From: Flectonema sp. DT1601
Taxonomy: Eukaryota; Euglenozoa; Diplonemea; Diplonemida; Diplonemidae
Length of the DNA stretch: 64,000 nucleotides
Assembly: GCA_964019425.1 (NCBI GenBank)
Contig: OZ025786.1
Location: 558,001 to 622,000 of the forward strand
Reading direction: 5' to 3'
The translations under genes were made by a program, and so were the position numbers. Position 1 is the first letter of the stretch. The number at the start of each line of letters is the position of its first letter. Of this stretch, positions 15,807-64,000 are shown one piece after another. Below the pieces are notes generated by a model. It saw only the letters and a program-made list of their open reading frames with translations. It was not told the DNA's origin and did no database searches.

Positions 15807-15810
15807 GTAA
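15050..15810 (+). CDS. eIF3 subunit J, full-length copy 2
   Basis: Two exons: 15050-15668 and 15743-15810, separated by a 74-nt phase-1 intron. The product is 228 aa, near the usual family size of about 220-260. It begins MSDYDWEDED with a long acidic stretch, continues with a KEKWDRILAARGE basic helix, then a helical domain (about 105-165), and ends NFDDFM. The DDFM end is the usual eIF3j C-terminus and confirms the second exon. An open frame extends upstream to 14915, but that part is homopolymer-like UTR, and the ATG at 15050 matches copy 1. An acceptor-like CTTCTCTAG lies just upstream. This is most likely the functional copy. Confidence 0.93.
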
Positions 15811-26638: not shown

Positions 26639-28579
26639 ATGACAGAAATGCTAACAGCTCTTCAGGGGCAGATTAATGAAACCCCTGAACACGGTGATGA
26701 ACAAACCCAATGGGGAAATCAAAAACACACATACAATGGAATGGATATATACCAAGCAGCTCAAGCAGGAGAGGTAGGAGTTGTAATGTTACTTTGGTAC
26801 AATGGAGTAAGCGTTAATTTAAAGCAATCTGAACCACCATACGCAACAGCACTACACCACGCAGCGTTTAATGGAAATACAAAGATATGTGAATTCTTAT
26901 TAGATCATGCGGCTGAGATTGATATTCGAATTCCAGACACTGACGTGACTCCATTAATGTGGGCATGTACCGCTGGTCATTTCTCTGTTGTAAAACTTCT
27001 CATTGAAAGAGGAGCTGACCCTTGTCAGGTAGAAGCTCAGGATTACAACTCTGCGTTCCATGCAGTTCACACTGGTAACACTCCATTAGTTCATTATTTA
27101 CTATCTGGTAATTATGGTATTGACCCTCATGCTGTTGATAAAGCAGGTCATAACATGGCACAGTGGGCTGCATTTAAAGGGGCACTCGGCTGCTTAAGAT
27201 ACCTTCACGAAACTGTTGGTGTTTCCGTAGAAGGTTTAGACAAAGAAAGACGAACAGCTTTACATTGGGCAGCTCACGCTGGTCAATATGTTACTGCAGA
27301 GTATCTCCTTAGTCTTAAACTAAACAAACTAGACATCCGTGATAGCGATGGACAGACTGCTGCTGAATTAGCTGCTGCCAGTAATCACAAGGCTGTTGAG
27401 AATCTCATCAACGACTACGTGAAATCTGGTCCTTTAAATTACGCCGCCCCTCGATCGGAATCGACTCTCAAATTCCTGTTCTCCAGCTTTCGTAACATTC
27501 GATTTGCTCTTTACGGTTTAATCTGTATGCCGTTAGCATATTACGTAATAGTAAAGTTCGTACCCTTAATAGTTAGTGTGTTGTTAGTTCCTTGTGTTTT
27601 TATTGTTCCAGGAACGTTGGACTATTTGGTCTTCAGAAACGGACGTCCTCCAGTGAGAACGATCGCACCCAGAAGTAACTCTCCGCTAGCAACTAGAATT
27701 CAAATGTTATCCGGCAGTGGAGAGAGAGATATGAGTGTGTTGTTCGCAAGTATGCTACTTCAAGGGTTCTTATTACACAGCTTCTTTGGAAGTTCTGTTG
27801 GTGACACAACAAAAAATTGGTCGCCAATGCTATACTCCTCCATGCAGTTTCTTACTGCTGTAGGACTGTTCTCTTACGTGATTTGCCTAATCAAGCGTCC
27901 TGCATCCCCTGACATCTCAGAGCTGAGTCCTGCAAAACAAGAAGAGATTAAGCGAACACCAGGTACCTACAGCTACGAAGCGATGGAAATGAAATCTCTC
28001 CGATCGAGCCACTGCCCGCTAATTGGAAGAGTAGTTTCTGGTTATGATCAATTCAATACTATGACTGATACAGCTATTGGTAAAGGAAATAGACTTTGGT
28101 ACATTATGTGGATTGGGTGTATTGGAATTGTTTTAACTTTAATAACCATCTCAACAGTGAGATGGAGTATTTATGTTGTTGCTCCGAGTAATGCTAACTA
28201 TTCGATCTGTCGTACAATTGGAAGATTTCTTAGAACTTCACTGCCAGGAAGTTCCAAAAACCCTGGAACATTTTTAGTACCAAGTCATGAAGAAATACTT
28301 GGCATGCAACTTATTGTAGTCTCAGCTGTATTCGCTTTGTTCTGTCTTGCGAGGTTCGCAGCTCAAGTTTACTTGGTCGGTTTAAACTTCACCAAAGCAG
28401 AGGTCGATAATCCAATTTGCCTTCCAATAGTTGACAAGGGACCCTCCATGATGGTATTACAAAATGGTAATTCATGCTACACAGCTGGATCATTTTTTTC
28501 TAATTGGAAGAATTTCGTCATTGGATCCGAAAGCTACAACTCACACTTCGTACATGACCCTGTGAAAGGGTGCGTCTAA
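26639..28579 (+). CDS. ankyrin-repeat DHHC-family membrane protein lacking the DHHC motif
   Basis: Single exon, 646 aa from the first ATG, ending in TAA. Residues about 30-260 carry about six ankyrin repeats (for example TALHHAAFNGNTKICEFLL, TPLMWACTAGHFSVVKLLI and TALHWAAHAGQYVTAEYLL). Membrane segments follow at about 285-325, 365-420, 495-520 and 565-590. This is the layout of Akr1/HIP14 (ZDHHC17) palmitoyltransferases. The region that should be the Cys-rich catalytic domain (about 455-490) aligns without gaps: RSSHC, a Tyr-Asp pair and IGKGN are kept, but DHHC is replaced by DQFN at 470-473 and three nearby zinc-binding Cys are gone. The C-terminal NSCYTAGSFFSNWKNF resembles the family's tail motif. 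It is therefore probably not an acyltransferase and may bind clients through its ankyrin domain at Golgi or endosomal membranes. Confidence 0.85.
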   Translation: MTEMLTALQGQINETPEHGDEQTQWGNQKHTYNGMDIYQAAQAGEVGVVMLLWYNGVSVNLKQSEPPYATALHHAAFNGNTKICEFLLDHAAEIDIRIPDTDVTPLMWACTAGHFSVVKLLIERGADPCQVEAQDYNSAFHAVHTGNTPLVHYLLSGNYGIDPHAVDKAGHNMAQWAAFKGALGCLRYLHETVGVSVEGLDKERRTALHWAAHAGQYVTAEYLLSLKLNKLDIRDSDGQTAAELAAASNHKAVENLINDYVKSGPLNYAAPRSESTLKFLFSSFRNIRFALYGLICMPLAYYVIVKFVPLIVSVLLVPCVFIVPGTLDYLVFRNGRPPVRTIAPRSNSPLATRIQMLSGSGERDMSVLFASMLLQGFLLHSFFGSSVGDTTKNWSPMLYSSMQFLTAVGLFSYVICLIKRPASPDISELSPAKQEEIKRTPGTYSYEAMEMKSLRSSHCPLIGRVVSGYDQFNTMTDTAIGKGNRLWYIMWIGCIGIVLTLITISTVRWSIYVVAPSNANYSICRTIGRFLRTSLPGSSKNPGTFLVPSHEEILGMQLIVVSAVFALFCLARFAAQVYLVGLNFTKAEVDNPICLPIVDKGPSMMVLQNGNSCYTAGSFFSNWKNFVIGSESYNSHFVHDPVKGCV

Positions 28580-29031
28580 ATGAATTTATCTCAACTAATT
28601 TCTTGTTCTTGATTAGACCAAATATGTAGTCAGTTCTTAAGGAGAGTCGTGTTATTGGTGAGTCTATCCTTGAATGATCTGAGGTCCCAAAAAAAGTAAC
28701 TCAATCGCACCTACTAAGTAAGGTAAAAAAAAAAAAAAAAAAAATTATTATTAAAAACCAAAGAAGAAACGTCGAATATGAGAGGATTATTCTCGTTAGT
28801 GAAGGAGGAGGAATGTTTACTTAATTACCGTTCTACAAATGGGAACCATCACCCCGGAAGATTGTTGCTCGTTAGTTGTGTGTGAAGTCTTCAGGAGCTC
28901 CTTTTAAAAGTCACACGCCCTGTTCATCAGTTTTAATAATTCTTTTTCAGTGTCACGAGTAGCTTGACTATTGGAGATTAATAACATTTTTTTGTTTTAT
29001 TCTCTTACAGAGTTACGGTGTTTTTGGAGAG
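28580..29031. other. intergenic region before the cyclin gene
   Basis: AT-rich with an A run at 28724-28744. It ends in a textbook pyrimidine tract plus acceptor (TTTTATTCTCTTACAG, ending 29010), 22 nt before the cyclin ATG. No gene seen. Confidence 0.5.
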
Positions 29032-29736
29032 ATGATTCCTATAGAATGTTTATGTCGCTTAATAAATCATAATTCCCATTTAGGTTTATTTACCTTACTA
29101 CTTAACTTCACTATGCTCACTAAGCTCTCAACTGTTGAAGTAATGAGATCTGTTTGTTTGATGGACAGTTACGATCCTATTGTATCAGTGATAGCTGAGA
29201 TTATGAAGATGTTAAGCGAAGGAGAAGTTGAAAACGCTCTTGAACCAAAAATCTACTGCGGTGATACAAAAATGGACATCACAAACTTACTTCGAAGGTT
29301 TGTGAGATACGCAAAGTGTTCACACAAATGTTTTGTTTACGCGTCAGCATTAGTAGATCGGGTCAGCACCAGGGGAAACATTGACGTTACAGGTAAGACA
29401 GTACACAGACTACTTCATGGATGTATTGTTCTCGCTATTAAATGGATTGAGGATGAAGTGTTCCCAAACTCTCACTACGCTGAAATCGGAGGACTCACTC
29501 TTCAGGAATTCAACGTTGTCGAACGTCAAGTTCTACACGACCTCGATTGGGACATTTCTATTGACGGCCGCACCATCCGAAAGTACGAAGACCAACTACA
29601 ACAGCACTGGATTTGGAACGCCTCTCGCCAGGACATCAAGAAAGAGAAGTTTCGCTCTTCAAGAATTCACACTTTAAAAGCTTCTTTCAGAGCGCTTCCA
29701 TTATTCGGAGGGAAAAAGTCTAAAAAGAGTCAATGA
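29032..29736 (+). CDS. PHO80-like (P/U-type) cyclin
   Basis: Single exon, up to 234 aa, ending in TGA. Cyclins of this class bind a Pho85/CRK-type kinase and act in nutrient response or cell-cycle control. The cyclin box lies at about 75-190: ITNLLRRFVRYAKCS, a VYASALVDRV helix, HRLLHGCIVLAIKWIEDE, and the class signature NSHYAEIGGLTLQEFNVVER followed by FL-D-W-like LDWDISI. The C-terminus is basic. The first 27 residues are hydrophobic and not typical, so Met28 (29113) may be the real start. The ATG at 29032 is 22 nt after a strong pyrimidine-AG site, which supports a mature 5' end near 29011. Confidence 0.88.
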   Translation: MIPIECLCRLINHNSHLGLFTLLLNFTMLTKLSTVEVMRSVCLMDSYDPIVSVIAEIMKMLSEGEVENALEPKIYCGDTKMDITNLLRRFVRYAKCSHKCFVYASALVDRVSTRGNIDVTGKTVHRLLHGCIVLAIKWIEDEVFPNSHYAEIGGLTLQEFNVVERQVLHDLDWDISIDGRTIRKYEDQLQQHWIWNASRQDIKKEKFRSSRIHTLKASFRALPLFGGKKSKKSQ

Positions 29737-30387
29737 AGTAAAACTTGGAGTGTGTTTTAAAAAAAAAAAAAAAAAAAAAAAAGAAAAAATATTTTCACCC
29801 CCTCATTTTATTAAACTAAGCAGAGACCCTCATCTCCAGACACTTCTTATTTGAAGTGCCTCCGAAACGAATACAATTTGTGTGGTCGAATCTGTTTCCT
29901 TTTTGAGAAAGAGGCGATTTCACGTCGCTATACTATACGGTACCTTTTTTGTTATGTTCCATGAGACCTGATGCCCTGCAAGCTACTTTCTTTTTTTTTT
30001 TAAGAGATGAAAACTGACTGACGACTGACTGATTGTAGAAAAATATAAATAATACATTATTTTGTGTGTTATAAAACTAGAAATAATCAATGCAAGTCTT
30101 TTTTATTAAAAAAAAAAATAAATAAATAAATAAAAATATTATTATTATTATCGTAGACCTATCGAAGCGGATCAACATTATAATGGACAGCACGTGTTGG
30201 CAAAGTCCGTGCCAACTAAGCTAATCGTGTAATCGTTCCAGTTGTTTAAATTTAAAAAGAAATATAAAAAAAAAAAAAAAAAAAAAAAAAGGAAAGGAGA
30301 GGAAAGGAAATCAGATGTTTTATAACAAAAAATAGGTTCATTAATGCGGGCATTCCTCGCAAGTTTTGTAATGGCAAGAAGGGGAAG

Positions 30388-30421
<34 letters not shown>

Positions 30422-31737
30422 CCGCACTTTTTTGTGTTGGCGACGTAATGCGACAGTCCCACTCGTGGTTCAACTACTATGTCAAACAAAAACAATTATG
30501 AATGTCCACCAGAAACATGTGATGACAACCTTAACTAGGGTAATGCCACTCACACACCATGCGATAAATAGTAGGCTCCACTGAGGTTGGTTAGGTGTCA
30601 TTTTTTTCGTCTGATTCCAGATTGGAATATAGAAGATATTTTTGATACTGACATAGCATGTACATCATTAATTTTTTTTTTTTTTTTTTTTTTTGTTGTT
30701 TAAAACTTTTTATTTGTAGCAACGCAAACACAGAATACTGAGTGAAAAACATCAAAAGCCAATCCTAACTGGATCCAGGTTTGGTTTTTTTTTGATGTAG
30801 AGCAGGCGTCGAGTACTGTGAAGGTGTATTATTATTTTATTAAATTTCGAAAAGAACGAAATCAATTTGTAGTTTGAATGAAACAGATTCATTAAAAAAT
30901 CGTCGGCTAGCGTTGCACGTCTATTCTTTCTTTAATTTCTCCCTATTTTTCTTCTTTAAGAGCTCAATGTATCTTTTTATCTTATCTACCGACGATTCAG
31001 AAAAAAAAATAAATAAATTTATTTCGTTTTTTTTTTTTTTTTTTTTTTTTTTCGGGGACTAAAAATATCTAAAATCCAGACTTTGCTAGGTAGGCTTACT
31101 TCTATATACTACTACTATACTGCTTTCCGTGTTGTTGATATGATGCAACACTTTTTAAGTAAGCCAAATTCTAAAAAGAGATTTTTTATTTTTTTTTATT
31201 TTAAATATTTCGTTTTTTGTGATCTCCCCATCTTGCCTTATTTATTTATTTTTTTTTTATTTTTTGAGAAAAAAAAAAAAAGAGTTGTTTATTATTACAT
31301 GTATATTTTATCTGCACATTTTCCTCAATTCAAAAAAAAAAACTCATTTGCTAAAGTATCTGGCGTGGAGTTTGTTAGTGTAGAGGGTTGGTGTGTGTTT
31401 TATTTTTTTTTCTTCTTTTGTTTGATACAAAAAAAAATATTTCTTATCGTACAAAGGTTTGTGTACGTCACCGCCTCGCTTAACGCGTTGGTGCTTTAAG
31501 TTTTATTTTCATTCGTTTTCGATATTATTCATCTTCTTTTTGGATTAGTAGACTTAGCATTCGTTGCTGACTTTTTTTTTTTTTTTTTAATATTATTATT
31601 ATTATATTTTTCTTCCTTATTTGGATAAAACATGTGATTGTTGGCTCAATACAAGATTATGTCCATCTTCTTGAGTCTTCCAAACACCGACGGTGGATGT
31701 CGCAGTTAAAAAAATAGTTTTCTTTTTTTTTTTTTTT
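29737..31737. other. gene-free stretch before the tandem array
   Basis: Dominated by homopolymers (A runs at 29759, 30267 and 30388; T runs at 30671 and 31029). Open frames here are Phe- or Lys-homopolymer artefacts. Segment 30480-30610 has balanced composition but no recognised gene. Confidence 0.5.
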
Positions 31738-32048
31738 ATCGTAACGTTTAACACCCTTTACTTTTAATAGGATTGTTTAATTGTTGCGAACAAACAAAAC
31801 CCAACGTGTGAGAATAATTTTTTGAAGGTATCGATTATTATTTTTTTTTTTACATTCTTTCAACAGTCAAGTTGACGCTATTATTTTTAACGTACTATTT
31901 GCTGTGTGTAGTTGACTCTCTTATTGGATACTGAATACTTTTCTTTATGTTTCTCGGTACGCACCGTAAATAGTAAAAAGGTTTGTACAAAAAAAAAGAA
32001 AAAAAGGCGATTATTTTTTTCCCCTTTTTTTCCATTCCCCGTATTCTT

Positions 32049-32083
<35 letters not shown>

Positions 32084-34256
32084 TTGAAACCAACACGTAG
32101 CTATATTACTGTACCCCCCCCCTGGTTTCTCAAGAACTCCACGATGTATTTATACTATTGAAAAGGTCGATTCTGTACTACACGGAATAAGAGACAAGTG
32201 TAAGCATTGGTTATAATGTGGAGTCTGTTATGATATATGGGGTGTGTTTATCTATATTAACATTAACTGGTATCATAATCTAATCCGTAATATTATTTTA
32301 TAAATATGTTCAGAACTGTTATCTCAATCTCCTCCACGTATTTCTTTTAATTATTCGGCACAACACTTCCCTATTAAGTAGAGCTGCAGTGTTATCGAAG
32401 AGATACGTTTATCGTAACGTTGACACCCTTTACTTTTAATAGGATTGTTTTATTGTTGCGCACAAACAAAACACAAAGTGTGAGAATTATTTTGTGAAGG
32501 TGTCGATTATTTTTTTTTACATTTTTTTTTACCAGTCAGTTGACAGCACACACAGCTGTTAAGGATATTTATTCCTCTTCCCCCCCCCCCCCCGTAGTTT
32601 TTTAATGTTTTTTTTGACGAGTTAATTTAAAAAAAGTTGAAACCAACATGTAGCTATTACTGTACCCCCTGGTTTTGGTTTCCCAAGGGGCTCACGATTA
32701 TTATTTGAACAATTGAAAAACTCTATTTCGTATTACACGGAATAAGAGACATGTAAGTATTAGTTATAATGTGGAGTTAGTTATGATATGTGGGGTGTGT
32801 TTATCTATATTAACATTAACTCCAATTCCGTAATATTATTTTTATAAATACGTTCAGATTTGTTAAGGGACACCTCCCTCACGTATTTTCGGTATTCTCC
32901 AAAAGACCATATCTTTATCCTAATTTCCTGTTGCGCACAAACAAAACACAAAGTGTGAGAATTACCTAGTGAAGGTGTCGATTATTATTTTTTTCTTTTT
33001 TTTACATTCTTTCATCAATCAGTTGACGCTATTATTTTTAAACTATTTGCTGTGTGTGGTGGTCAACATTTGCTCTCTTATTGGACACTAAATACTTTTC
33101 TTTATGTTTCTCGGTACACATCGTAATAGTAAAAGGTTTGTACAACAAAAAGGGGAAAAAAAAGGCGATCATTTTATTTTCCCCCTTTTTCCCCCGTTAA
33201 CCTTGATTTGTTTATCCAAGTCCCCCCTGTATTGTATCTCAGAACTAATGTTAAATTATCGTTATGTTGTTTATGATACAATACATTTGTATTTTACGTA
33301 CAAAATCAAACAGTTAACCCCCCCCCGTATTCTTTTAATTAAAAAAAAAAAAGTTGGAACCAACACGTAGCTATATTACTGTACCCCCTGGTTTTGGTTT
33401 CCCAAGGGGGCTCACGATTTATTTTTTAACAATTAAAAAAAACTCTATTCCACACTACACGGAATAAGAGACATGTAAGTATTAGTTATAATGTGGAGTT
33501 AGTTATGATATGTGAGGTGTGTTTATCTATATTAACATTAACTCCAATTCCGTAATATTATTTTATAAATACGTTCAGATTTGTTAAGGGACACTTCCCT
33601 CACGTATTTTTGGTGTCCAAGACGTATTTTTTATCGTAACGTTTAACACCCTTTACTTTTAATAGGATTGTTTAATTGTTGCGAACAAACAAAACCCAAC
33701 GTGTGAGAATTATTTTTTGAAGGTATCGATTATTGTTTTTTTTTACATTCTTTCAACAGTCAAGTTGACTATTATTTTTAACGTACTATTTGCTGTGTGT
33801 GGTGGACTCTCTTATTGGATACTGAATACTTTTCTTTATGTTTCTCGGTACGCACCGTAAATAGTAAAAAGGTGTGTACAAAAAAAAAAGACGGTAGTTT
33901 ATTTTCCCCTTCCCGTATTCTTTTAATGTCCTTTGAAGAGTTAATTAAAAAGTGAAAACCAACACGTAGTACCCCTGGTTTTGGTTTCTCAAGAACTCCA
34001 CGATGTATTTAAACTATTGAAAAGGTCGATTCTGTATTACACGGAATAAGAGACAAGTGTAAGCATTGGTTATAATGTGGAGTCTGTTATGATATATGGG
34101 GTGTGTTTATCTATATTAACATTAACTAGTATCATAATCTAATCCGTAATATTATTTTATAAATATGTTCAGAACTGTTATCTCATTCTCCTCCACGTAT
34201 TTCTTTTAATTCTTCGGCACAACAATTTCTTTAGTAAGTAGAGCTGCAGTTTTGTG
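31738..34256. repeat. four-unit tandem array, units of about 0.5-0.7 kb
   Basis: Four diverged direct units start near 31738, 32411, 32911 and 33633. Shared blocks in order: an ATCGTAACGTTTAACACC start (lost from unit 3), a TGTTGCG.ACAAACAAAAC block, TTGACGCTATTATT, TTTATGTTTCTCGGTAC, CAACACGTAGCTATATTACT, a GGAATAAGAGACA block, and a GTGTGTTTATCTATATTAAC block. Units 1 and 4 are closest to each other, and 2 and 3 share other variants, giving an A-B-B-A pattern. Unit 2 lacks a block of about 150 nt. Unit 3 carries an extra segment near 33227-33310. No protein is encoded. The array may be satellite-like or a tandem non-coding RNA locus. Confidence 0.85.
33227..33310. repeat. dispersed 73-nt core element inside tandem unit 3
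   Basis: The sequence from TGTATCTCAGAACTAATG to TATTTTACGTACAAA matches 48170-48243 and 48327-48400 almost exactly. It interrupts tandem unit 3 next to C runs and is absent from units 1, 2 and 4, so it appears to be an insertion. AATACA/TGTATT near its 3' end can form a hairpin. Confidence 0.75.
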
Positions 34257-47440: not shown

Positions 47441-49058
47441 AAACGACTCTCTGATTGGTAATTCAAACAATAAAAAAGTAAGAGAGTGACACTACTGATT
47501 CCCGTTCCCTCTTTCCATTTTTCTTTTTTGTCTCTTGTTGTTGTAAATACATAGGATTGGTTGGCACAGCGTCAACCCAATTTTACCATTTTCTTTTTAA
47601 AGAAGAATAATATTAACCCATAAGAACTCTACCTATCCTTAAGGACTCTAAAAGAATTGAACAGATGTCTCGATCTGTTTCCTTTTGTTAAATCGAATAA
47701 AAAAACGTCATCTCGTCTCCTTGAAAAGAACTGTTCGCAACCTCCTCCCTTTTGAGTTTTTGTTCACTTTTTCACATTTGTTTCAATTTTTGGTTATTTA
47801 ATTTTCGTTTCGTAGAAAAACACTTTTTCTTTTCTTCTTTTCTTACTTTGGTCCGGAACAGTTAAAGCTTAAAACTGACTGTCTCATCCGATTTTGTGTT
47901 TCTTACGGATTGGTATCGTTCGTGTTCCCAAGTTTCGTGATACTCTTTTAAAGTCTTTGGTCTCTTTCCAATTAAGTGATGAGATCAATTAGGTTTTTTT
48001 ATTGTCTTTCATGGTATGGAATGTACGTGTGATTATTTCATTGAAAGAAAGGTTTTTATAAATTGAATACCTCTATAGAAAAGACATTTTTATTTATTAC
48101 TCCCCATCTCCATTATAACCTGTTGGGAATCCTTCCGGCACAATCGCTGGTTCATTACCTTTTAGTCACTGTATCTCAGAACTAAAGTTAAATTATCGTT
48201 AATTTGTTTTTATGATACAATACATTTGTATTTTACGTACAAACTCGAAAGGTTAAATCCCCGTCTCCAATACAACTTCTTGGGAATCCTTCCGGCACAA
48301 TCTCTGGTTCATTACCTTTTAGTCACTGTATCTCAGAACTAATGTTAAATTATCGTTAATTTGTTTTTATGATACAATACATTTGTATTTTACGTACAAA
48401 CTCGAAAGGTTAAATCCCCGTCTCCAATACAACTTCTTGGGAATCCTTTCGGCACAATCTCTGGTTCGAGTTACCCAGATTCCCGACGGTCATCTACTAA
48501 CTTCCGCTGAGAAGGAAAATACTTGCTGATGAAGGATAAGGGGACAAGACATTGATGCCTAACTATATTCTAAAGTGTTATATAATACGTTTCCCTCCTA
48601 ACCACGCGGGGTATTTGTGCTTCTAGTGCTTATAGCATCTGCTCAACGAAGCCAGAAAAAACGATGCGATGAGACGTTCCCTTCTTTTATCTTTAGGTAG
48701 AGTACGCTCCCCTTTTATTATTGGTTGGCATGCAGTTAATAGGAAAACGTTAAGCTTCGTAAAAGAAAACTATTCCTAGTTTTTCATTGTTTTTCTTTTT
48801 TATATTCCTTTTTTTTCTTTTTTTTTTTTTTTGTTATCCCAAAAAGAATACAACAGGTTCGTCCTTCAGCCACCTGCGTTAAGATGTCTCTGAAAGAGAG
48901 CCGTCGTCTGTTCTTGTACAAAAGTAATCTCTAAAATAATAATTATTTTCATAAGCTTCACACACTAACGGAAGCTGTCGGAACGTGTGATTGTAACAGG
49001 ATGCTGTTTTCGTATTATTTAATTCAGTTCTACTTTGCAACAGACACCTAAGCGAACG
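47441..49058. other. intergenic region with a 157-bp tandem repeat
   Basis: T/C-rich, with the tandem repeat at 48101-48466. A 12-nt-scale similarity to the 36-nt hairpin family is at 48521-48545. No gene recognised. ATTTAATTCAG and CTTTGCAACAG lie within 40 nt of the next ATG. Confidence 0.55.
48101..48466. repeat. 157-bp tandem repeat, 2.3 units
   Basis: Units start at 48101, 48258 and 48415 (last one partial). Each full unit has a TCTCCA start, GGGAATCCTTCCGGCACAAT, then the 73-nt core that also occurs inside the array at 33.2 kb, and CGAAAGGTTAAATCCCC at its end. Confidence 0.9.
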
Positions 49059-52000
49059 ATGGCAGACCTCGTCTGTCTTGCCGGAATGGCAGCAGTAGTG
49101 GGAGTGCTTTACCAATCTGAATACCATCCTTTGATTTGCGCAATCCCAATTGTTGCTTACCTCTTAGGACCTTTTGTGGTAACGGTGTTTCAGAAGTTGA
49201 TGTTTGGCGATAGTCCTAAGTTAGTTAAGAAACCAGGAAGAGGGGCATCCGTAAAGCAAAAGAAGGAGGATAGGGATCGACCAAAGATTCAGATTTTGTA
49301 TGGATCACAAACCGGAACCGCTGAGCTTTACGCAAAGAACTTAGGAAGAGAAGCAAAGAAACTCGGATTCAACGCTGAGGTTCTTGATATGGCTGATGCA
49401 GAAATGGAAACTCTTTGGGAGCAGAAATTCGTTCTTTTCATCGTTGCGACATACGGTGAGGGTGAGCCAACAGACACCATGAAAGACTTCCACAGTTGGT
49501 TGTTGTCAGAAGAAAGAGCATATGACCAACAAGACTTGGGTGAAATGACCTTTTCTGTATTCGGACTCGGAGACTCGCAGTACAAACACTTTTGTCACAT
49601 GGGAATTGAATTCGATCAGCGTCTTTCGGAGTTGAACGCCAAGCGTGTTCATGAACTTGGATTAGGAGACTCTGACACAAACATGGAAGAAGACTTCGAT
49701 AACTGGAAAGCAGAATTATGGGCCAAAGCTTCCCCGATGTTCGGTTTAAAAGCAAAAGATGAATTCGCTGATGGACCAGATCAGCAACAGAAGTTGAAGA
49801 CTCATCCGGCACCAAAAGACAACCCACCGCCATTTCCAAAAACTGCTTCATCCCTTCCACCGAGCAACAAGTTACCATGCTGGGGAACAATCGCAAAGAG
49901 TCAGGAAATGCTCGCTTCTAACCCTGATGGAAGATCGACCATTCACATTGAAATTGACTGCGGAAGCGCTTCTCTACAAAACTATGAAGCAGGTGACCAT
50001 CTCGGAATCCTTCCAGCAAACAGCGATGAAACAGTTGCTGAGTACATGAAGTTGTTGGGAATCAAAGAAAAGAATGAAGTCGTAAGTTTGGTATCTCGTG
50101 ATGGAATGTCACAGAGAAATCATCTTCCTAACAAGGTTCCTGTTCACGTTGGTTTGAAATGGTACTTTGACTTACAGGGTGTTCCAAAGAAGAGTGTTCT
50201 TCGTGCGTTCACTCACTTTACGAAAAACGACGAGGAGCGTGAGAAATTCAGATCCCTTCTCCGCATCCATGAAGAGTCCCGTGATATGTACCACGAGGCT
50301 GTTGCCAAAGCCCGGTATGACTTGCTTTACTTTTATTAACATTTGAGATGGGGTCGTATTTCACACGATACCACACCTTTCTCACCTTCCGCACGGGATT
50401 ACCACAGTGCCCAGAGAAGGTAACGAGGGTGTGGGAGATAAGAAGATAATGAATTCGGTGAGAACCGCACCTTTCTCACCTTCCGCACGGGATTGCCACA
50501 GTGCCCAGAGAAGGTAACGAGGGTGTGGGAGATAAGAAGATAATGAATTCGGTGAGAACCGCACCTTTCTCACCTTCCGCACGGGATTACCACAGTGCCC
50601 AGAGAAGGTAACGAGGGTGTGGGAGATAGGAAGATAATGAATTCGGTGAGAACCGCACCTTTCTCACCTTCCGCACGGGATTACCACAGTGCCCAGAGAA
50701 GGTAACGAGGGTGTGGGAGATAAGAAGATAATGAATTCGGTGAGAACCGCACCTTTCTCACCTTCCGCACGGGATTACCACAGTGCCCAGAGAAGGTAAC
50801 GAGGGTGTGGGAGATAGGAAGATAATGAATTCGGTGAGAACCGCACCTTTCTCACCTTCCGCACGGGATTACCACAGTGCCCAGAGAAGGTAACGAGGGT
50901 GTGGGAGATAAGAAGATAATGAATTCGGTGAGAACCGCACCTTTCTCACCTTCCGCACGGGATTACCACAGTGCCCAGAGAAGGTAACGAGGGTGTGGGA
51001 GATAAGAAGATAATGAATTCGGTGAGAACCGCACCTTTCTCACCTTCCGCACGGGATTACCACAGTGCCCAGAGAAGGTAACGAGGGTGTGGGAGATAGG
51101 AAGATAATGAATTCGGTGAGAACCGCACCTTTCTCACCTTCCGCACGGGATTACCACAGTGCCCAGAGAAGGTAACGAGGGTGTGGGAGATAAGAAGATA
51201 ATGAATTCGGTGAGAACCGCACCTTTCTCACCTTCCGCACGGGATTGCCACAGTGCCCAGAGAAGGTAACGAGGGTGTGGGAGATAAGAAGATAATGAAT
51301 TCGGTGAGAACCGCACCTTTCTCACCTTCCGCACGGGATTACCACAGTGCCCAGAGAGGGTAACGAGGGTGTGGGAGATAAGAAGATAATGAATTCGGTG
51401 AGAACCGCACCTTTCTCACCTTCCGCACGGGATTACCACAGTGCCCAGAGAAGGTAACGAGGGTGTGGGAGATAAGAAGATAATGAATTCGGTGAGAACC
51501 GCACCTTTCTCACCTTCCGCACGGGATTACCACAGTGCCCAGAGAAGGTAACGAGGGTGTGGGAGATAAGAAGATAATGAATTCGGTGAGAACCGCACCT
51601 TTCTCACCTTCCGCACGGGATTGCCACAGTGCCCAGAGAAGGTAACGAGGGTGTGGGAGATAAGAAGATAATGAATTCGGTGAGAACCGCACCTTTCACA
51701 CCTTCCGCACGGGATTACCACAGTGCCCAGAGAAGGTAACGAGGGTGTGGGAGATAAGAAGATAATGAATTCGGTGAGAACCGCACCTTTCTCACCTTCC
51801 GCACGGGATTACCACAGTGCCCAGAGAAGGTAACGAGGGTGTGGGAGATAAGAAGATAATGAATTCGGTGAGAACCGCACCTTTCTCACCTTCCGCACGG
51901 GATTACCACAGTGCCCAGAGAAGGTAACGAGGGTGTGGGAGATAGGAAGATAATGAATTCGGTGAGAACCGCACCTTTCTCACCTTCCGCACGGGATTAC

Positions 52001-55000
52001 CACAGTGCCCAGAGAAGGTAACGAGGGTGTGGGAGATAAGAAGATAATGAATTCGGTGAGAACCGCACCTTTCTCACCTTCCGCACGGGATTACCACAGT
52101 GCCCAGAGAAGGTAACGAGGGTGTGGGAGATAGGAAGATAATGAATTCGGTGAGAACCGCACCTTTCTCACCTTCCGCACGGGATTACCACAGTGCCCAG
52201 AGAAGGTAACGAGGGTGTGGGAGATAAGAAGATAATGAATTCGGTGAGAACCGCACCTTTCTCACCTTCCGCACGGGATTACCACAGTGCCCAGAGAAGG
52301 TAACGAGGGTGTGGGAGATAAGAAGATAATGAATTCGGTGAGAACCGCACCTTTCTCACCTTCCGCACGGGATTACCACAGTGCCCAGAGAAGGTAACGA
52401 GGGTGTGGGAGATAGGAAGATAATGAATTCGGTGAGAACCGCACCTTTCTCACCTTCCGCACGGGATTACCACAGTGCCCAGAGAAGGTAACGAGGGTGT
52501 GGGAGATAAGAAGATAATGAATTCGGTGAGAACCGCACCTTTCTCACCTTCCGCACGGGATTGCCACAGTGCCCAGAGAAGGTAACGAGGGTGTGGGAGA
52601 TAAGAAGATAATGAATTCGGTGAGAACCGCACCTTTCTCACCTTCCGCACGGGATTACCACAGTGCCCAGAGAAGGTAACGAGGGTGTGGGAGATAAGAA
52701 GATAATGAATTCGGTGAGAACCGCACCTTTCTCACCTTCCGCACGGGATTACCACAGTGCCCAGAGAAGGTAACGAGGGTGTGGGAGATAAGAAGATAAT
52801 GAATTCGGTGAGAACCGCACCTTTCTCACCTTCCGCACGGGATTACCACAGTGCCCAGAGAAGGTAACGAGGGTGTGGGAGATAGGAAGATAATGAATTC
52901 GGTGAGAACCGCACCTTTCTCACCTTCCGCACGGGATTACCACAGTGCCCAGAGAAGGTAACGAGGGTGTGGGAGATAAGAAGATAATGAATTCGGTGAG
53001 AACCGCACCTTTCTCACCTTCCGCACGGGATTACCACAGTGCCCAGAGAAGGTAACGAGGGTGTGGGAGATAGGAAGATAATGAATTCGGTGAGAACCGC
53101 ACCTTTCTCACCTTCCGCACGGGATTACCACAGTGCCCAGAGAAGGTAACGAGGGTGTGGGAGATAAGAAGATAATGAATTCGGTGAGAACCGCACCTTT
53201 CTCACCTTCCGCACGGGATTACCACAGTGCCCAGAGAAGGTAACGAGGGTGTGGGAGATAAGAAGATAATGAATTCGGTGAGAACCGCACCTTTCTCACC
53301 TTCCGCACGGGATTACCACAGTGCCCAGAGAAGGTAACGAGGGTGTGGGAGATAGGAAGATAATGAATTCGGTGAGAACCGCACCTTTCTCACCTTCCGC
53401 ACGGGATTACCACAGTGCCCAGAGAAGGTAACGAGGGTGTGGGAGATAAGAAGATAATGAATTCGGTGAGAACCGCACCTTTCTCACCTTCCGCACGGGA
53501 TTGCCACAGTGCCCAGAGAAGGTAACGAGGGTGTGGGAGATAAGAAGATAATGAATTCGGTGAGAACCGCACCTTTCTCACCTTCCGCACGGGATTACCA
53601 CAGTGCCCAGAGAAGGTAACGAGGGTGTGGGAGATAAGAAGATAATGAATTCGGTGAGAACCGCACCTTTCTCACCTTCCGCACGGGATTACCACAGTGC
53701 CCAGAGAAGGTAACGAGGGTGTGGGAGATAAGAAGATAATGAATTCGGTGAGAACCGCACCTTTCTCACCTTCCGCACGGGATTACCACAGTGCCCAGAG
53801 AAGGTAACGAGGGTGTGGGAGATAAGAAGATAATGAATTCGGTGAGAACCGCACCTTTCTCACCTTCCGCACGGGATTACCACAGTGCCCAGAGAAGGTA
53901 ACGAGGGTGTGGGAGATAAGAAGATAATGAATTCGGTGAGAACCGCACCTTTCTCACCTTCCGCACGGGATTACCACAGTGCCCAGAGAAGGTAACGAGG
54001 GTGTGGGAGATAGGAAGATAATGAATTCGGTGAGAACCGCACCTTTCTCACCTTCCGCACGGGATTACCACAGTGCCCAGAGAAGGTAACGAGGGTGTGG
54101 GAGATAAGAAGATAATGAATTCGGTGAGAACCGCACCTTTCTCACCTTCCGCACGGGATTGCCACAGTGCCCAGAGAAGGTAACGAGGGTGTGGGAGATA
54201 AGAAGATAATGAATTCGGTGAGAACCGCACCTTTCTCACCTTCCGCACGGGATTACCACAGTGCCCAGAGAAGGTAACGAGGGTGTGGGAGATAAGAAGA
54301 TAATGAATTCGGTGAGAACCGCACCTTTCTCACCTTCCGCACGGGATTACCACAGTGCCCAGAGAAGGTAACGAGGGTGTGGGAGATAAGAAGATAATGA
54401 ATTCGGTGAGAACCGCACCTTTCTCACCTTCCGCACGGGATTACCACAGTGCCCAGAGAAGGTAACGAGGGTGTGGGAGATAAGAAGATAATGAATTCGG
54501 TGAGAACCGCACCTTTCTCACCTTCCGCACGGGATTACCACAGTGCCCAGAGAAGGTAACGAGGGTGTGGGAGATAGGAAGATAATGAATTCGGTGAGAA
54601 CCGCACCTTTCTCACCTTCCGCACGGGATTACCACAGTGCCCAGAGAAGGTAACGAGGGTGTGGGAGATAAGAAGATAATGAATTCGGTGAGAACCGCAC
54701 CTTTCTCACCTTCCGCACGGGATTGCCACAGTGCCCAGAGAAGGTAACGAGGGTGTGGGAGATAAGAAGATAATGAATTCGGTGAGAACCGCACCTTTCT
54801 CACCTTCCGCACGGGATTACCACAGTGCCCAGAGAAGGTAACGAGGGTGTGGGAGATAAGAAGATAATGAATTCGGTGAGAACCGCACCTTTCTCACCTT
54901 CCGCACGGGATTACCACAGTGCCCAGAGAAGGTAACGAGGGTGTGGGAGATAAGAAGATAATGAATTCGGTGAGAACCGCACCTTTCTCACCTTCCGCAC

Positions 55001-56014
55001 GGGATTGCCACAGTGCCCAGAGAAGGTAACGAGGGTGTGGGAGATAAGAACAAGTCGAACTGGTGCAAGATAGTCAGTGTGGACGGCGTCAGTCTTATTT
55101 TAACAAATCCTTGTACATCTTGCCTTCCGTATTCTCCAGTGGCTTAAGCCTCTAATGAGAGAATGACTTGGATACGATAACAATTCCTCGAGAGGGTAAC
55201 ACATACAAGGGAGAAGTGTTTACGCGATACGTTATTTTTAAAACCTTAGGAATTTGAGTTACGTCGAACAAAAAAATAATTTAAAAAAAACAGCACAATT
55301 GCCGGATTCCTCAGAATGTTCCCTTCTACAGAAGTACCAGTTGATCTCTTCTTTGAGATGATGCCACGTACCCAACCACGTTTCTACTCTATTGCATCAG
55401 ACTCCCTAGTTCAGGGTAAATGTGTTAACATGTGCCTCGCAGTATCGGAGGGAGGTCTTTGCAGTAGCTACATGAAGGATATGACTATAGGATCAAAGGT
55501 ACCTTGCTTTATTAGAAAGAGTACTTTCCACTTGCCAATGCGTAACAAGGAAAGACACACCATTATGATTGGACCTGGAACTGGTGTTGCTCCACTCATT
55601 GGTTTCGTCCACAGAAGAAATGCTTGGGCGAAGAATAACACTCTTGGTGAATGCCACTTTTACTTTGGATGTCGTAGAAAGAACGAAGACTACATCTACA
55701 GAGATCTCTTAGAAGGAGCAGAGAAGGATGGCATCATTACTAAATTAAGAGTTGCATTCTCTAGAGACTCCGACAAGAAGGTTTACGTTCAGGACTTAGT
55801 CAAAGAAGATGGTAGCGAGCTAATGAAATTAATTGACGGAGGAGCCAACATCTACATCTGTGGTGACGCTAAGAGAATGGCAAGAGACGTTGAGAGAGCT
55901 CTCGTTAATATCTTAGTTCAACATGGAAAAATGGAAGAGGAGAAAGCAATGGAACGTTTGAATAAAATGGAAAAGAGTCAGCGTTACTTGAAGGATGTCT
56001 GGACCAGCCACTAG
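49059..56014 (+). CDS. NADPH-cytochrome P450 reductase, split by a repeat-filled intron
   Basis: Exon 1 is 49059-50314 and exon 2 is 55294-56014; the phase-2 intron rebuilds an Arg codon and joins AKAR to TIAGFLRMFPS. The product is 658 aa, close to the usual 670-700. It passes electrons from NADPH through FAD and FMN to microsomal P450s and other ER acceptors. An N-terminal membrane anchor is at about 3-45. FMN domain: ILYGSQTGTAELYAKNL (about 80), ATYGEGEPTDTMKDF, FGLGDSQYKHFCHMG. FAD domain: RFYSIASDS. NADPH domain: IGPGTGVAPLIGF, HFYFGCRRKNEDYIY and YICGDAKRMARDV. It ends in DVWTSH, where the family usually has DVWS. All cofactor motifs are intact, so a working enzyme is likely if the 4,979-nt intron is removed. 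Confidence 0.96.
50315..55293 (+). other. 4,979-nt intron of the P450 reductase gene
   Basis: Donor GTATGA and acceptor AAAAAAAACAG match the other cis-introns of the window, which are 62-100 nt. Only 56 nt before and 243 nt after the array are non-repetitive, so about 94% of the intron is the 94-bp repeat. Confidence 0.95.
50371..55050. repeat. intronic minisatellite: 94-bp unit, about 49.8 copies
   Basis: Forty-nine full units and a 74-nt partial one, nearly identical. Units start at 50371 + 94n. Two common variant sites are ATTACC/ATTGCC and GATAAGAAG/GATAGGAAG; rare ones occur in units 11 and 15. The variants form repeating patterns over many units. At each unit border GGTGAGAA and TTCTCACC form an 8-bp hairpin with an 8-nt loop. 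The repeat has much higher GC than nearby intergenic DNA and no homopolymers. Short minus-strand open frames spanning two units are artefacts of repetition. Confidence 0.98.
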
Positions 56015-58362: not shown

Positions 58363-61300
58363 ATGTTGTATTCCATTGCTGTGGCTTTGCTTGCTGTGTT
58401 GTTGACACCAGCAGCTGGTACATGGAATCGACTCCCAACTGAAATGGGAACACCTCCCCGACCTAGAGTAGAGATGGCCTTCACTAGTTATGATGACTTA
58501 CTTATTGTACACGGAGGTAGAACTTTAGGAGTGAACCCAACACTTATGAATGACATTTACGAATACAATTTAACAACAGAAACTTGGAAACATCTTCCCC
58601 AGCCGGCAACCAGACCGTCACCAAGATCTCGACATACGATGGTCTCTTTCGATGATTTTGAACACCAGAAGCCAGTTGCTATTCTGTTTGGAGGTGATAC
58701 GTTGCAGGGATTCAGTGATGAGATGTGGATATTTGATATCGTTCACGGGACTTGGCAAAAGCCTGCTTTTGCTGCAACACCCTGGCCGAGAGTAGGTCAC
58801 GCGATGTCTGCTGTTGGTTCACATGTTTACATAGCTGGGGGGTCAGGATTAGGTGGCGTATTGACTGATGTTTGGCAACTTGATATGAAGGACATCTCAG
58901 CGGGTTGGAAATCCCTTCCGATGTTACCCAGCGCTCGTGTTGATGCAGCGATGGTAGCTACTTCGGAATCTCTGTTTTTTCTCGGAGGTCGTGTGCATCC
59001 AGCTGCCGCTCCTGGAAATAATCTCTGGATATTAAACCTGACTACGGCATCCTCCTGGACGGAGTTTCCAAACCGGTACGGACCGAGGAGAGCACTTCAT
59101 AATCTTCACATGGTCGATGAACAATTGATTTTATTTGGAGGTGCTGATGGAACAACAACAGGAAGTGGCGACTTGCTGACGTTAAATTTGACGCAGGGCG
59201 TGTGGGTCACTCGAACTGCACCAAAAGTTGACAGTCGCGGTAATCTCATCGACCAAGTAGCAAGAGAAGGTGCTCGATCTGGACTATTCCATAACCAGTT
59301 AGTAATATACGGAGGGTGGTCATCAACAGAGGGAGCTCTTAATGACTTATGGACAATATCAGTACCTCAATTAAACACCTGGAAAAGGGTTCACGACAGT
59401 ATGGACACACCAATGCCTGTAGCAGGTCATTGCACAGTTGGGTTTGGAGATACACTTATTATTGTTGGTGGTAGGACTAGTCCTACATCATTATCGTGGT
59501 TTGTTCATCAATATAATTTTACGACTACTACTTGGAAAGAAATAACACCGAGTAAAGGCTTATCAATTCCAGCTTTAGAACACCACGTCTGTGTTGTATT
59601 TGGAACTACTTTAATTGTACACGGGGGGACTGACGCAATTGCTCCGAATGCTGAGATCTATTCGGTCTCTTTAATTCCTCATCTCGGAGAGAACAGAGAA
59701 TGGCATCGCGAAAAGCAAATTGGCATCACACCCGGTCCGAGATATGCTCACACAGGAGTTCTTCATGAGAATTACCTTTATATATTTGGTGGAAGAGGTG
59801 CTTCAGGAATAATTCGAAATGACATTTGGGTGTTTGATATTCAAACTGGGAAATGGGATCAGATTAACGTCAACGTTGTTGGTTCTGTATTCTCAGCATC
59901 CTGTTTGGTTCATAAAGGGAATACAACCGCCTGGTTTATTGAAAGTGGACAAGACAGTTCTGAAAGTCCACTTGGATCAAACTACTTAATTGACATGAGA
60001 ACTCATCAACTTCAGACGATATCATTAGTAGGAGATGACGGACTCCCTCCTGCAAGTGATTGGCATGTGAGTCAGGCGTCAGCAGTTGGCTTAGGATCTA
60101 CAGTTTTGTTATTTTTCGGACAATCACATCACAGAATAACTTCAGCAGTAGTATCTCTTGATGCCTTCACAGGTAAATATCGAGAGATTACCAGATCTGG
60201 TAATGATACCTGGCCAGTACCTCACTCTAAGGTTGGTGTTGTTGCTGTTGGCAACACAATAATTATTTTTGGTGGTGTTGCAGGGATTGGTACATCACCG
60301 TTGCCGTATCATTTCTCAAATGACATGTGGGAGTTTAGCTACACACAAGATTCTCTGTGTCCTGGTGCTGGAAACTGTTTGAGCTGCCCAGCTGGAACAG
60401 AGAAACGTTCAACTAGTTGTGTGATGTGTTCGATGGGAATGTATTCAAATAATGGAGACGAGTGTAGTTTCTGTCCATCTGGAACTTACTCGAGTTACAC
60501 TGGTGCTCGTGGTGTTCATGGATGCTCATCATGTAGCTTTGGTACTTATAATAATCAAAATGGTGCATCAATCTGCAATTCATGTCCTGAAGGGATGTAC
60601 TGCCCTGTCAGGTCTGAGTCACCCCAAAAGATCAACAGCTACACCAACACTACGATGTCATCTAAGCAACCTGGTCCTTTTAGAGGGAAATCATTATTCG
60701 ATGCTCCAATTCTTTATTTCCTCGTTCCGTTTGGAGTAGTCGGATTGAGCATTTTAATTGTTGCCGCCCTCCTCATGAGAGCTCATCGACAACGAGTAGG
60801 TAGAAAAGATGAATACATGTCTGAAGAAAGATTAAGAGAGTGTGTTAGTATTTATAATCGACATAATTATGAGTTTGTTGGTCTCTGTGATTCTCAGCTG
60901 ACCCTCGCTTTAAGAGAGTACGGACTACCAAAACCAACTGATGAGTTCGCGAGAGATTGTTTGTTAGAATACGACTCTTCTGGTAACTTCAGACTGGAGA
61001 GAGATGAGTGGATCTGGCTTTGTGTAGATTTAGATCACGAGAGGAAAACAGCTGCAGAGGAAGTTATAATGACTGGAGACGGTGAACCTCCATCAACCTT
61101 CCAACTATCAGATTTAGATCTCTTTCCAACATCTCACAGGTCCTTAGTGATGGGAGAGCCGCCAAAGATGAAGACAACAACAGCTGGAGGAGTAGTTTCT
61201 GTCTTTTGCTGTGCGGGTTTAGTATTTGTAGCCGTCAGTTTGTCGCTTCAACAAAGCTACGCAAACTTCGAAGAGCTTCGATCTGTACTACCGGAGTTAA

Positions 61301-62683
61301 TAGCACCTGGTGGGTTCTCTGATACTCCTTGTAAACAGTTAGAATTTATATTTGGGATTCAAGGTCACATCTCTAAGGAATCTTGTGCTAATGACCAACG
61401 TGAGTGTCTTGGAGCTGTTCATTACGAACTTGCGGGTGTTCGATGCGAAACAGTTGATATTCAATGTCAGTTCGTTCAGCACGACGCTTTAGGAGAATGT
61501 TTTCTGCAAATGACGTGTGACAGCTCTACTTTTTCATCACTAAATGGTGCAGAACATAAAATAAAACTCGGCCTCAATGGTTCTGTTGATGCTGAAGGTG
61601 TGTCTGTACGAGTTAGTGTTGACACCGGCATTCCGAGTGAGTTCAGTAACACCAGTTCATCAATTGCGTCCCCATCTAAAAAACTACTTCGTGGTTCTGC
61701 ACCGAGTATTGCAACAATACAAGCTTACCCGACAGTGTTTGTTGAAGATGGTACTATGAAAGATCAAGGATTACTTGTTAGAACTTCACAGTTTACTCAT
61801 GGAAGTACTGTGTCTGATTTTGATTATCATCAACACACAGGAATATATGGTCAATTAATATTTGAATTAATCAGAGCCTCAACAATAGTTGTTGAGAGGA
61901 GACCAATCATCCCTGTATTGACATTTCTTGGATCACTTGCGGGTACGTTGTCTGCTTGGATGGGATTTTGCTCGCTGTTGGTTTACGGAGGAGATCTGAC
62001 CACGTCGTGGACTCTCAAAAGAAAAGCAGCGAAGATAAAAAATCAACTCAAAGAACAAGAACAGCAGGAATGCGCAAATGGAACACTTCCTTCGGTACAA
62101 AGTCTTCCTTTTGATGATCCAAACATCCCGGAATGGAATGAACTCGTCAGACCTCTCGTCGGGTCTTCGTTTACTCTTCTTCAAGCGAGAGGTATACTTT
62201 CAGCTATTTTATTCTTGTTGGGACGAGGTGCTCAAAAAGTACCACTTGCCTGTAAGCAAATCCAATCCATTAAAGAAACAACAAACGACAACACCAAAGG
62301 GAAAAAGACTAACTGGCCTGATGAACTCGTATGTACATTTGAAAATAATATAATTCGATTTTTAATTTCTACTCTTTGAATTGTCAAAAAGAAAAGTTAC
62401 AAACAAATCGAAACAGTCATCAGAAGGAGACATGGAAGAACTACCCAGTGAGTTCCCTGTGAAAGGTGAAACTGAATACGACAATGATGATGTTTTTATT
62501 CAGACTGAAGGCGCTTCTATTTCTGGAAATGAATTAACAAATATCGAATCTCGTCTTCGTACTCTTGAAGTCTCTGTGTCTCCTCAACATAGTGTACAGC
62601 AGTCGATGAATATTTTAATTTCTCGAATGAGTGCGCTAGAAGCGCTTCTACAACAGCGATTACCAATATCGTCTTTTCGATAG
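58363..62683 (+). CDS. large kelch-repeat, Cys-rich, multi-TM surface protein
   Basis: Two exons: 58363-62328 and 62417-62683, with an 88-nt phase-0 intron (GTATGT...AAACAG). The product is 1,410 aa. A signal peptide (1-19) precedes a long kelch beta-propeller region (about 20-655) with repeated GG followed by W motifs, probably two propellers. A Cys-rich block at 666-747 has GTYSS/GTYNN repeats like ephrin-receptor-type GCC2/GCC3 domains. TM1 is at about 783-806. A cytoplasmic segment follows with one EF-hand-like loop (DSSGNFRLERDE, 871-882; position 6 is not Gly). TM2 is at 941-962, then a second luminal domain with several Cys, and TM3 at about 1182-1210. The C-terminal tail is acidic and ends in a coiled coil. 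It resembles attractin-type receptors only in its kelch plus Cys-rich part. Likely an adhesion or signalling protein; the exact family is not recognised. Confidence 0.87.
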
Positions 62684-63195
62684 CTGGAAAATCTGAATGC
62701 TGTGGTTTTCGTTAAAACGAGCATCATTGATGAGTGAACTGTGAAGTCAAGCTTTGACTAACTGCTTCGGAAACGGTTCTAAATAATTTTAAATCTGTCT
62801 TGCTTGCTTACTCTTTTCAGAGTTGATTTCAAGTACGAGATTCGATTTATTTAAAATAACTTTTCATAAAATAAAAACAACCAAAAAAAAACACTAGAAT
62901 TCAACACCATTTTTATTATTGCTTTTAATGAGCTCAACAAACCAAAAAGGGACAAAATTAAGAGTTGAAAAATACGTATCATCTCTCAAAATTAGAACTC
63001 TACAGAAAGATTTTATTTACACAGCTGACTCAGCTTTCAAGTTGTGAACTGTTTCTGCAGGCTATCTGATAGTTACTTTTACACACAGGCTTCACAATGA
63101 ATACAGATAATTGATAAGGGAAACAGTTATGAGTAATCCTAGCTACTTTTTATTGAATTAATGAACAACTTCAACACACCATCAGATAACATAAA
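62684..63195. other. intergenic region between surface-protein genes
   Basis: AT-rich, with two acceptor-like sites: CTGTTTCTGCAG near 63060 and TTACTTTTACACACAG near 63089. No gene seen. Confidence 0.5.
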
Positions 63196-64000
63196 ATGAT
63201 TCGCACAGCGCTGCTCTCAGTAGCGATGGCTGCCGCAGGTGCGGCAGCAGAGGAGCCGCTCTTCAGCATGTCTTGCAGTGGAAGAGTTGATGTATTCCCT
63301 GGACTCCCTTACGGACTTACTGCTGACGTAAGTAATCAGCGAATGATCGCAAATAAGATGTTCGAGACCGCGAGAGACAGAGTTCGTTGCCACTGCCCAG
63401 AGTTGTCGGATGAGCAGTTTCTCGATCGCTTCTCACCTGCCAGGATTGTGTTCAATCTGCTCGGAGGAAGAGAAGAAACTAAATTAGATGACATCCCATG
63501 TCTTGATGAAGCTGATACTTACACTCGTGATCTTCACAAGTACTTAAAGGGTCTGTTACTAGGATCTGAGATCACTCTGCCAGAAACTTGCACGAGAGCA
63601 GATTTCATTGGAGAGAAGGGATGCAGATTTGAGATTGACACCACACAAGAAGTTGGAGTTAATCTTCGATTTGTCACCACAGAGTGTGCAGATGGTCCAG
63701 TTCCAGCAGGAGCTATTTATTGCGCAGGTGAGGGCTGTTCAACTCTGTTGCAGCCATGTAGTGAAGGATGCGCTAAAGGTCAGGTTTGCTCTGATGGAGA
63801 CCTGATCAACAGACTTCTTGGAATAAGTGGAGAGGAAACCACCGAACTAACTGGTCTCCAAACCATCATCGACAGCGCAGCAAGCTTCTTTGGCATCAAC
63901 GCGACCGCTTCTGTTGAGCACCTCTACCGTCTTATTGACGGAGACTTTGACAGTGAAAGGACTCTCGATGACTGTGAGGATGCTTTCAAAGCTTTTCCGT
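63196..64000 (+). CDS. secreted Cys-rich protein, truncated by window end
   Basis: An open frame of at least 268 codons from the ATG at 63196 runs off the window without a stop. A signal peptide is likely at 1-18 (MIRTALLSVAMAAAGAAA), then a mature region with many Cys, including CHC, a CAGEGC...C...C...C cluster near 178-196, and further single Cys. No membrane segment is seen so far. The mature part looks like a disulfide-bonded extracellular domain, but no family is recognised. It lies 0.5 kb after the kelch surface protein on the same strand. Base composition is less AT-rich than elsewhere, as in other coding regions here. Confidence 0.82.
   Translation, partial: MIRTALLSVAMAAAGAAAEEPLFSMSCSGRVDVFPGLPYGLTADVSNQRMIANKMFETARDRVRCHCPELSDEQFLDRFSPARIVFNLLGGREETKLDDIPCLDEADTYTRDLHKYLKGLLLGSEITLPETCTRADFIGEKGCRFEIDTTQEVGVNLRFVTTECADGPVPAGAIYCAGEGCSTLLQPCSEGCAKGQVCSDGDLINRLLGISGEETTELTGLQTIIDSAASFFGINATASVEHLYRLIDGDFDSERTLDDCEDAFKAFP

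Follow-up and report, generated by a model that had tools for sequence, protein, structure and literature searches.

We analysed a stretch of 64,000 nucleotides (nt) from the diplonemid Flectonema sp. DT1601 (contig OZ025786.1, positions 558,001 to 622,000, forward strand; hereafter the window) and found that its P450 reductase gene is interrupted by an intron of 4979 nt, of which 4681 nt (94%) are a tandem array of one 94-bp unit and 298 nt make up the rest (Table 1). Exon 1 (1256 nt) encodes the flavodoxin domain and the start of the FAD-binding domain (Pfam PF00258, E 1.8e-38; PF00667, E 2.1e-23), and exon 2 (721 nt) supplies the remaining FAD-binding domain, the NAD-binding domain, and the stop codon. 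Joined in a coding sequence (CDS) check, the exons give a protein of 658 amino acids (aa) whose only stop is terminal. The junction, AKAR/TIAGFL, is ungapped in all 11 homologues aligned with the reductase query, and none of them has extra residues there; these homologues were drawn from the best 120 of 1907 protein matches, obtained by scoring the 7995 candidates that shared most words. Among them are eight proteins from EukProt (P0002-P0009, 49-62% identical), which carry names of transcript assemblies. Thus, the single stop and the ungapped junction bear out the preliminary description of this DNA, which had one gene with a frame intact on both sides of the intron and joining cleanly. The same description called the enzyme essential-looking, a label taken from the usual role of P450 reductase.

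Searched against the assembly (89.5 Mb in 92 contigs), exon 1 has one full-length match, the other six of the seven matched places being partial and 28-35% identical. In a reductase tree of 20 rows, the query belongs to a starred five-row group, the sister of which is another starred group of five, including P0055 (labelled Hpha, which we take to be Hemistasia phaeocysticola). The next group out comprises T. brucei, Leptomonas, PhM4, and PhF6, the last two presumably early-branching kinetoplastids, with GGOE01 and EG_transcript beyond. This placement accords with a diplonemid host, as do the GTATG donors and A-rich ACAG acceptors, the spliced-leader matches, and the paraflagellar rod match described below.

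Retention of the intron would end translation seven codons into it. One predicted protein, P0001, has this form: it matches exon 1 with 100% identity, ends after seven residues read from the intron (50315-50339), and is without exon 2. P0001 seems to begin at TTG. The contig listed for it has a length of 1,389,822, compared with 1,724,803 for contig C7 of the assembly, and there may be a second assembly. Its case is a warning that mechanical gene calling cuts the reductase gene at exon 1.

Table 1. Positions of the reductase gene parts and the array in the window, and of long arrays in the sampled stretches (numbered within each stretch)
Feature	Position	Strand	Description	Basis
P450 reductase exon 1	49059..50314	+	ATG of the 658-aa frame to the donor	Pfam; CDS check
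Canonical GT-AG intron	50315..55293	+		Ungapped junction against 11 homologues; donor and acceptor matrix scores
Minisatellite array	50370..55050	+	94-bp unit, 49.8 copies, ~99% identical	Tandem Repeats Finder; unit-by-unit comparison
Recurring-variant stretch	50558..53753	+	Units 3-36	Variant string; shuffle tests
Intron 3' part outside the array	55051..55293	+	A-rich tract and ACAG acceptor	
P450 reductase exon 2	55294..56014	+		Pfam PF00667 and PF00175; CDS check
Sampled array of at least 800 bp	L041 3305-5101		257 bp x 7	
Sampled array of at least 800 bp	L047		62/92 bp over 3.3 kb, 64-67% matches	
Sampled array of at least 800 bp	L051		32 bp x 27	
Sampled array of at least 800 bp	L051 4839-8221		256 bp x 13	

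Splice sites and size of the intron

The intron runs from GTATGA to AAAAAAAACAG and so has the GT-AG ends, the GTATG donor, the A-rich tract, and the CAG end of a canonical (U2-type) diplonemid intron. To place it among its neighbours, we predicted introns in 264 kb, made up of the window and 20 stretches of 10 kb hand-picked at round coordinates on nine contigs, plus 22 kb of search loci. Of the 41 candidate groups, 16 were kept and 25 dropped by requiring a donor GT[AGT]TG[TAC], an ACAG end, a length of at most 120 nt, and A+C-rich last 20 nt; in two prior scans, with 23 pairs and with 460 pairs in 115 groups, many of the pairs were implausible. The 16 introns are predictions from coding continuity and consensus, made without RNA, and the selection rule biases both the matrices and the length range toward the consensus that it demands.

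Scored with matrices from these 16 introns, whose leave-one-out minima are 5.9 for donors and 8.8 for acceptors, the reductase intron reaches 9.1 at its donor and 17.9 at its acceptor. Its donor lies within the top 0.7% of 2805 GTs and its acceptor within the top 0.5% of 2647 AGs on the forward strand of window positions 100-48000. The predicted small introns, six in the window and ten in the sampled loci, measure 63-110 nt with a median of 76 nt, which makes the reductase intron about 65 times the local median. The earlier claim of a single oversized intron therefore stands, while the eight other introns of 62-100 nt with which it had been compared were not reproduced as such. A noncanonical euglenozoan intron was considered and rejected: the GT-AG ends are present, and the 60-nt ends pair no better than shuffles, 107 of 200 of which did equally well or better. 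A spliceosome used to introns of ~76 nt would here face one of ~5 kb, a natural test of its reach.

Unit variants and origin of the array

Tandem Repeats Finder reports a period of 94 with 99% matches, 0% indels, and a score of 9208, against 678 for the runner-up in the window, and the array is far beyond chance. Compared with their majority consensus, the 49 full units carry 21 mismatches in 4606 bases, 28 of them being identical to it, and the last, partial unit of 75 bp has one mismatch. These counts agree with the preliminary description of about 50 copies filling the intron. As head-to-tail copies of a 94-bp unit, the array is a minisatellite, a class described as having units of seven to several hundred bp (PMC8096271). 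Its start lies 55 nt past the donor and its end 243 nt short of the acceptor, and its unit has 51% GC, compared with 27%-46% in the 1-kb bins of the window outside the array region. EcoRI sites number 49 within it.

The recurring unit variants show how the array is built. A32G is found in eight and A72G in 11 of the 50 units (partial unit counted), and the same eight-unit variant pattern occurs three times, in units 3-10, 17-24, and 27-34; units 17-26 and 27-36 are neighbouring copies of one ten-unit pattern. A block with at least four variant units was present three times in 5 of 5000 shuffles, a statistic chosen after the variant string had been seen. Such recurrence is consistent with unequal exchange, or with slippage, across some ten units. 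It also bears on whether assembly, in which tandem arrays are error-prone, has produced a false copy number or even the array itself. We give such an artefact almost no credence, as the contig is 1.72 Mb long and the ordered, non-uniform variants, with non-repeat flanks on both sides, are not readily made by simple copy error. The exact copy number of 49.8 is uncertain.

Within the assembly, the unit is confined to one locus. A DNA search with the unit gave 22 matches and a search with its 29-nt core (at most three mismatches) gave 50 places, all within the array; an exact core match was not found in viral contigs. The sequence at 55040-55310 likewise matches the assembly at one place only, and a dispersed satellite or transposon was ruled out on these grounds. 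For the 54-nt left flank of the array, the search was confined to 286 kb (window, sampled stretches, and search loci).

A source closer by or in the mitochondrion was considered as well, namely, that the array arose by tandem copying of mitochondrial DNA in the nucleus (NUMT, nuclear mitochondrial DNA), of another known sequence, or of the 3' end of exon 1. Both types of array are described in D. papillatum (PMC10161547), and the GC content of the unit, set apart from that of the window, would suit a foreign source. We nevertheless regard such an origin as very unlikely. Neither the core search nor the DNA search found a match outside the array, in a set that included the apparently mitochondrial contig C91, and none of 14 comparisons of the unit with the exons, the intron flanks, and window 1-61000 outside the intron (61001-64000 being left out) beat all its shuffles, which preserved base composition only. 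A copy of the 3' end of exon 1 was rejected specifically, since the best local score against exon 1, 10.5, was reached by 17 of 100 shuffles. In the sequences searched, a NUMT origin thus has no support.

Contig C91 itself carries a cytochrome b module three times at 25191-33919, with a spacing of 4285 bp and two in-frame TGA codons in each; it may be a circular chromosome of the mitochondrion that assembly has rendered as a concatemer. A COX1 search of the assembly was empty, and the set of mitochondrial sequences may lack members or be too divergent.

Splicing across the array

Judged with the same matrices, the best donor in the array scores 3.0 and the best acceptor -7.7, and no donor or acceptor in it reaches the minima of the 16 predicted introns. 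By comparison, 40 sampled chunks of 4681 nt hold on average 5.5 such donors and 5.05 such acceptors; one chunk is without a donor and eight are without an acceptor, and none lacks both. Since strong splice sites are absent from the array, it can grow longer without gaining any. These scores also speak to the idea that each unit can be spliced by itself, as a small exon-intron module (CACAG, 12 nt, GTAACG), so that the array would be removed stepwise. The unit does carry these motifs, and its length lies within the local range of intron sizes, but its GTAACG donor scores -5.5 and its CACAG acceptor -8.7, far below the minima given above, and the 11 aligned homologues show no insertion at the junction. 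Stepwise removal is accordingly the sort of explanation that we would hardly entertain.

Trans-splicing has to be considered beside cis-splicing. A 20-nt spliced-leader core has 753 matches in the assembly with at most two mismatches, many of them in tandem arrays, against none for the reversed control, and spliced-leader genes are very likely present, judging from these matches. Among the matches listed are a tandem array at C16:1432460-1446807 with units of ~623 bp, which stops less than 300 bp short of the C16 end, and another at C20:1248665-1287266 with units of ~610 bp; in places, spacings are ~1695 bp.

With spliced-leader genes very likely present, the array could act as a length-dependent modulator of splicing: a longer array would slow or impair the joining of exon 1 to exon 2, leading to more intron retention or to addition of the spliced leader in trans at the exon-2 acceptor, and copy number would tune the amount of full-length reductase. 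It would then work like the human intronic variable number tandem repeats (VNTRs) of ABCA7 and TERT, whose length has been linked to splicing (PMC5954066, PMC11830802), and early termination in a retained intron would give it a means. Set against this are the exon-2 acceptor, which at 17.9 resembles the predicted cis acceptors, and the boundary repeats of amphioxus, which are reported not to disturb regular splicing (PMC3087553). We consider such modulation unlikely, although array length could affect expression, as the preliminary description suggests. Still less probable, and by a good deal, is that the array is a kinetic spacer that balances cis-splicing against spliced-leader addition at the exon-2 acceptor, its copy number setting the proportion of full-length and truncated frames. 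If true, it would be a VNTR controlling the choice between cis- and trans-splicing, of which we found no case in the literature at the title and abstract level of the top-ranked entries.

At the RNA level, the folding energy of the sense unit is -28.8 kcal/mol (z -2.40; equalled or bettered by 5 of 200 shuffles) and 150 nt of the sense array reach z -2.64 (2 of 200), while the antisense unit gives z -1.51 (16 of 200). Five units in tandem do not stand out from shuffled tandems (z -1.37; 12 of 150 as good), and RNA structure as an intron-compacting device was dropped on this account. No Rfam family was found in the window at the gathering score, the sole hit up to E 1 in 50300-50800 having 21.6 bits against a cut-off of 90, and a tRNA search gave nothing at threshold.

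The explanation that we hold to be likely is that a canonical short intron has been swollen by a homogenised minisatellite confined to one locus, that the intron is cis-spliced as one unit, and that the array has no function of its own. An ordinary short U2-type intron of the diplonemid reductase gene would have gained a 94-bp duplication, which would then have grown to about 50 copies, in part through duplication of about ten units at a time, whether by unequal exchange or by slippage in replication; the same process would keep the units alike. The pre-mRNA would be cis-spliced from the GTATGA donor to the A-rich ACAG acceptor, so that the array would leave as one lariat in a single step; on removal of the intron from the mRNA, the continuity of 11 of 11 aligned homologues across the junction bears indirectly. 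Tolerance of the array would follow from its position entirely within the intron and from the absence of strong competing splice sites in it.

Several points weigh against this explanation. In both length and homogeneity, the array exceeds the four long arrays of the sampled stretches, and recent drive or selection is possible. A test of the longest repeated block was only borderline, being reached by 95 of 2000 shuffles. The sense RNA folds somewhat better than its shuffles, which could hint at a structural role. When 4000 random 94-mers were made tandem, 82.5% were also without strong splice sites; the lack of sites in the array is therefore not evidence of selection, and missing cryptic sites were rejected as its signature. 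Finally, splicing and copy number are read from the sequence of one assembly. The reductase array is a real and striking feature that nevertheless looks ordinary, probably a passive expansion. Variation in its length among strains would make the locus convenient for telling strains apart and for reporting on splicing; without such variation, the array is a neutral curiosity.

Tandem repeats in the genome and in other systems

In the sampled stretches, Tandem Repeats Finder arrays with a period of at least 10 cover 14,079 of 200,000 bases. Long arrays, of 800 bp or more, number four and come from 3 of the 20 stretches, which gives a rough base rate. The 256- and 257-bp arrays of L051 and L041 belong to one AT-rich satellite family, ~91-92% alike.

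Other repeated sequences were seen along the way. A dispersed element of ~100 bp, with the core TTTAGTCACTGTATCTCAGAACTAATG...TTTTACGTACAAACTCGAACAGTTAA and, in many cases, a C run after it, occurs in the window at 48101-48467 and 33233-33317 and in L025-L031, L041, L045, and L046, with 931 candidates genome-wide, 40 of which were scored. Upstream of the reductase gene, it lies within a 157-bp tandem repeat of 2.3 copies. It may be a miniature inverted-repeat transposable element, a short interspersed nuclear element, or another kind of sequence; Rfam gave only a sub-threshold small nucleolar RNA hit. Two tandem eIF3j-like genes (PF08597) at window 14059-15810 are 88.8% identical over 948 aligned bases and have near-identical 74-nt introns, and the first copy ends in sequence resembling what precedes it, as if by unequal exchange. 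An open reading frame at window 24668-26056 matches the paraflagellar rod family (E 4.7e-19).

Introns of Diplonemidae are described as having a GTATG donor, a CAG end, and A in the 3' tract, strongly so in D. japonicum (Thakur et al. 2025, PMC12621601). The reductase intron shares these marks and differs in size: the same account gives short introns, with a median of 74 nt in Rhynchopus humris, in contrast to a length some 65-fold above the local median here. Short-read diplonemid assemblies are said there to miss long, repeat-bearing introns.

The nearest parallels come from D. papillatum, also a diplonemid, for which long introns and tandem arrays adjacent to genes or partly intronic are described (Valach et al. 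2023, PMC10161547). Those arrays repeat pieces of genes and their neighbourhood and are degenerate (71-96% in the example given), whereas the reductase unit is, by the shuffle comparisons above, not exon-derived and is ~99% homogeneous. The same paper reports a NUMT tandem array of 164 copies of 68 bp, nearly 10 kb in all, which resembles the reductase array in being long, short in its unit, nuclear, and diplonemid; it differs in that no mitochondrial match to the reductase unit was found in the assembly.

Outside the diplonemids, the amphioxus "mirages" are minisatellite-like repeats at intron-exon boundaries, with units of 150-160 bp, 157 bp, and 10-72 bp, whose length differs between haplotypes; unequal exchange is suspected, and regular splicing is reported (PMC3087553). 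Like the reductase array, they lie at an intron of a functioning gene. Mirages, however, span the exon-intron boundary and have AG/GT in many units, whereas the reductase array is wholly intronic and has no strong splice site; its distances from donor and acceptor and its lack of exon similarity led us to reject a mirage of the amphioxus type. Because arrays are frequent in the genome and have parallels in D. papillatum and amphioxus, as far as those accounts describe them, an intronic array is less surprising.

In humans, a reference set of tandem repeats is reported to have one or more members in 49% of genes (PMC8096271). The VNTRs of ABCA7 (PMC5954066) and TERT (PMC11830802) are, like the reductase array, minisatellites within an intron, and the TERT repeat in intron 6, with a 38-bp unit and 24-66.5 copies, has a similar copy number. 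For the human VNTRs, length polymorphism and splicing effects have been measured, in contrast to the reductase array, which is known here from its sequence alone. Thus, an intronic minisatellite is a known kind of feature, in diplonemids and beyond.

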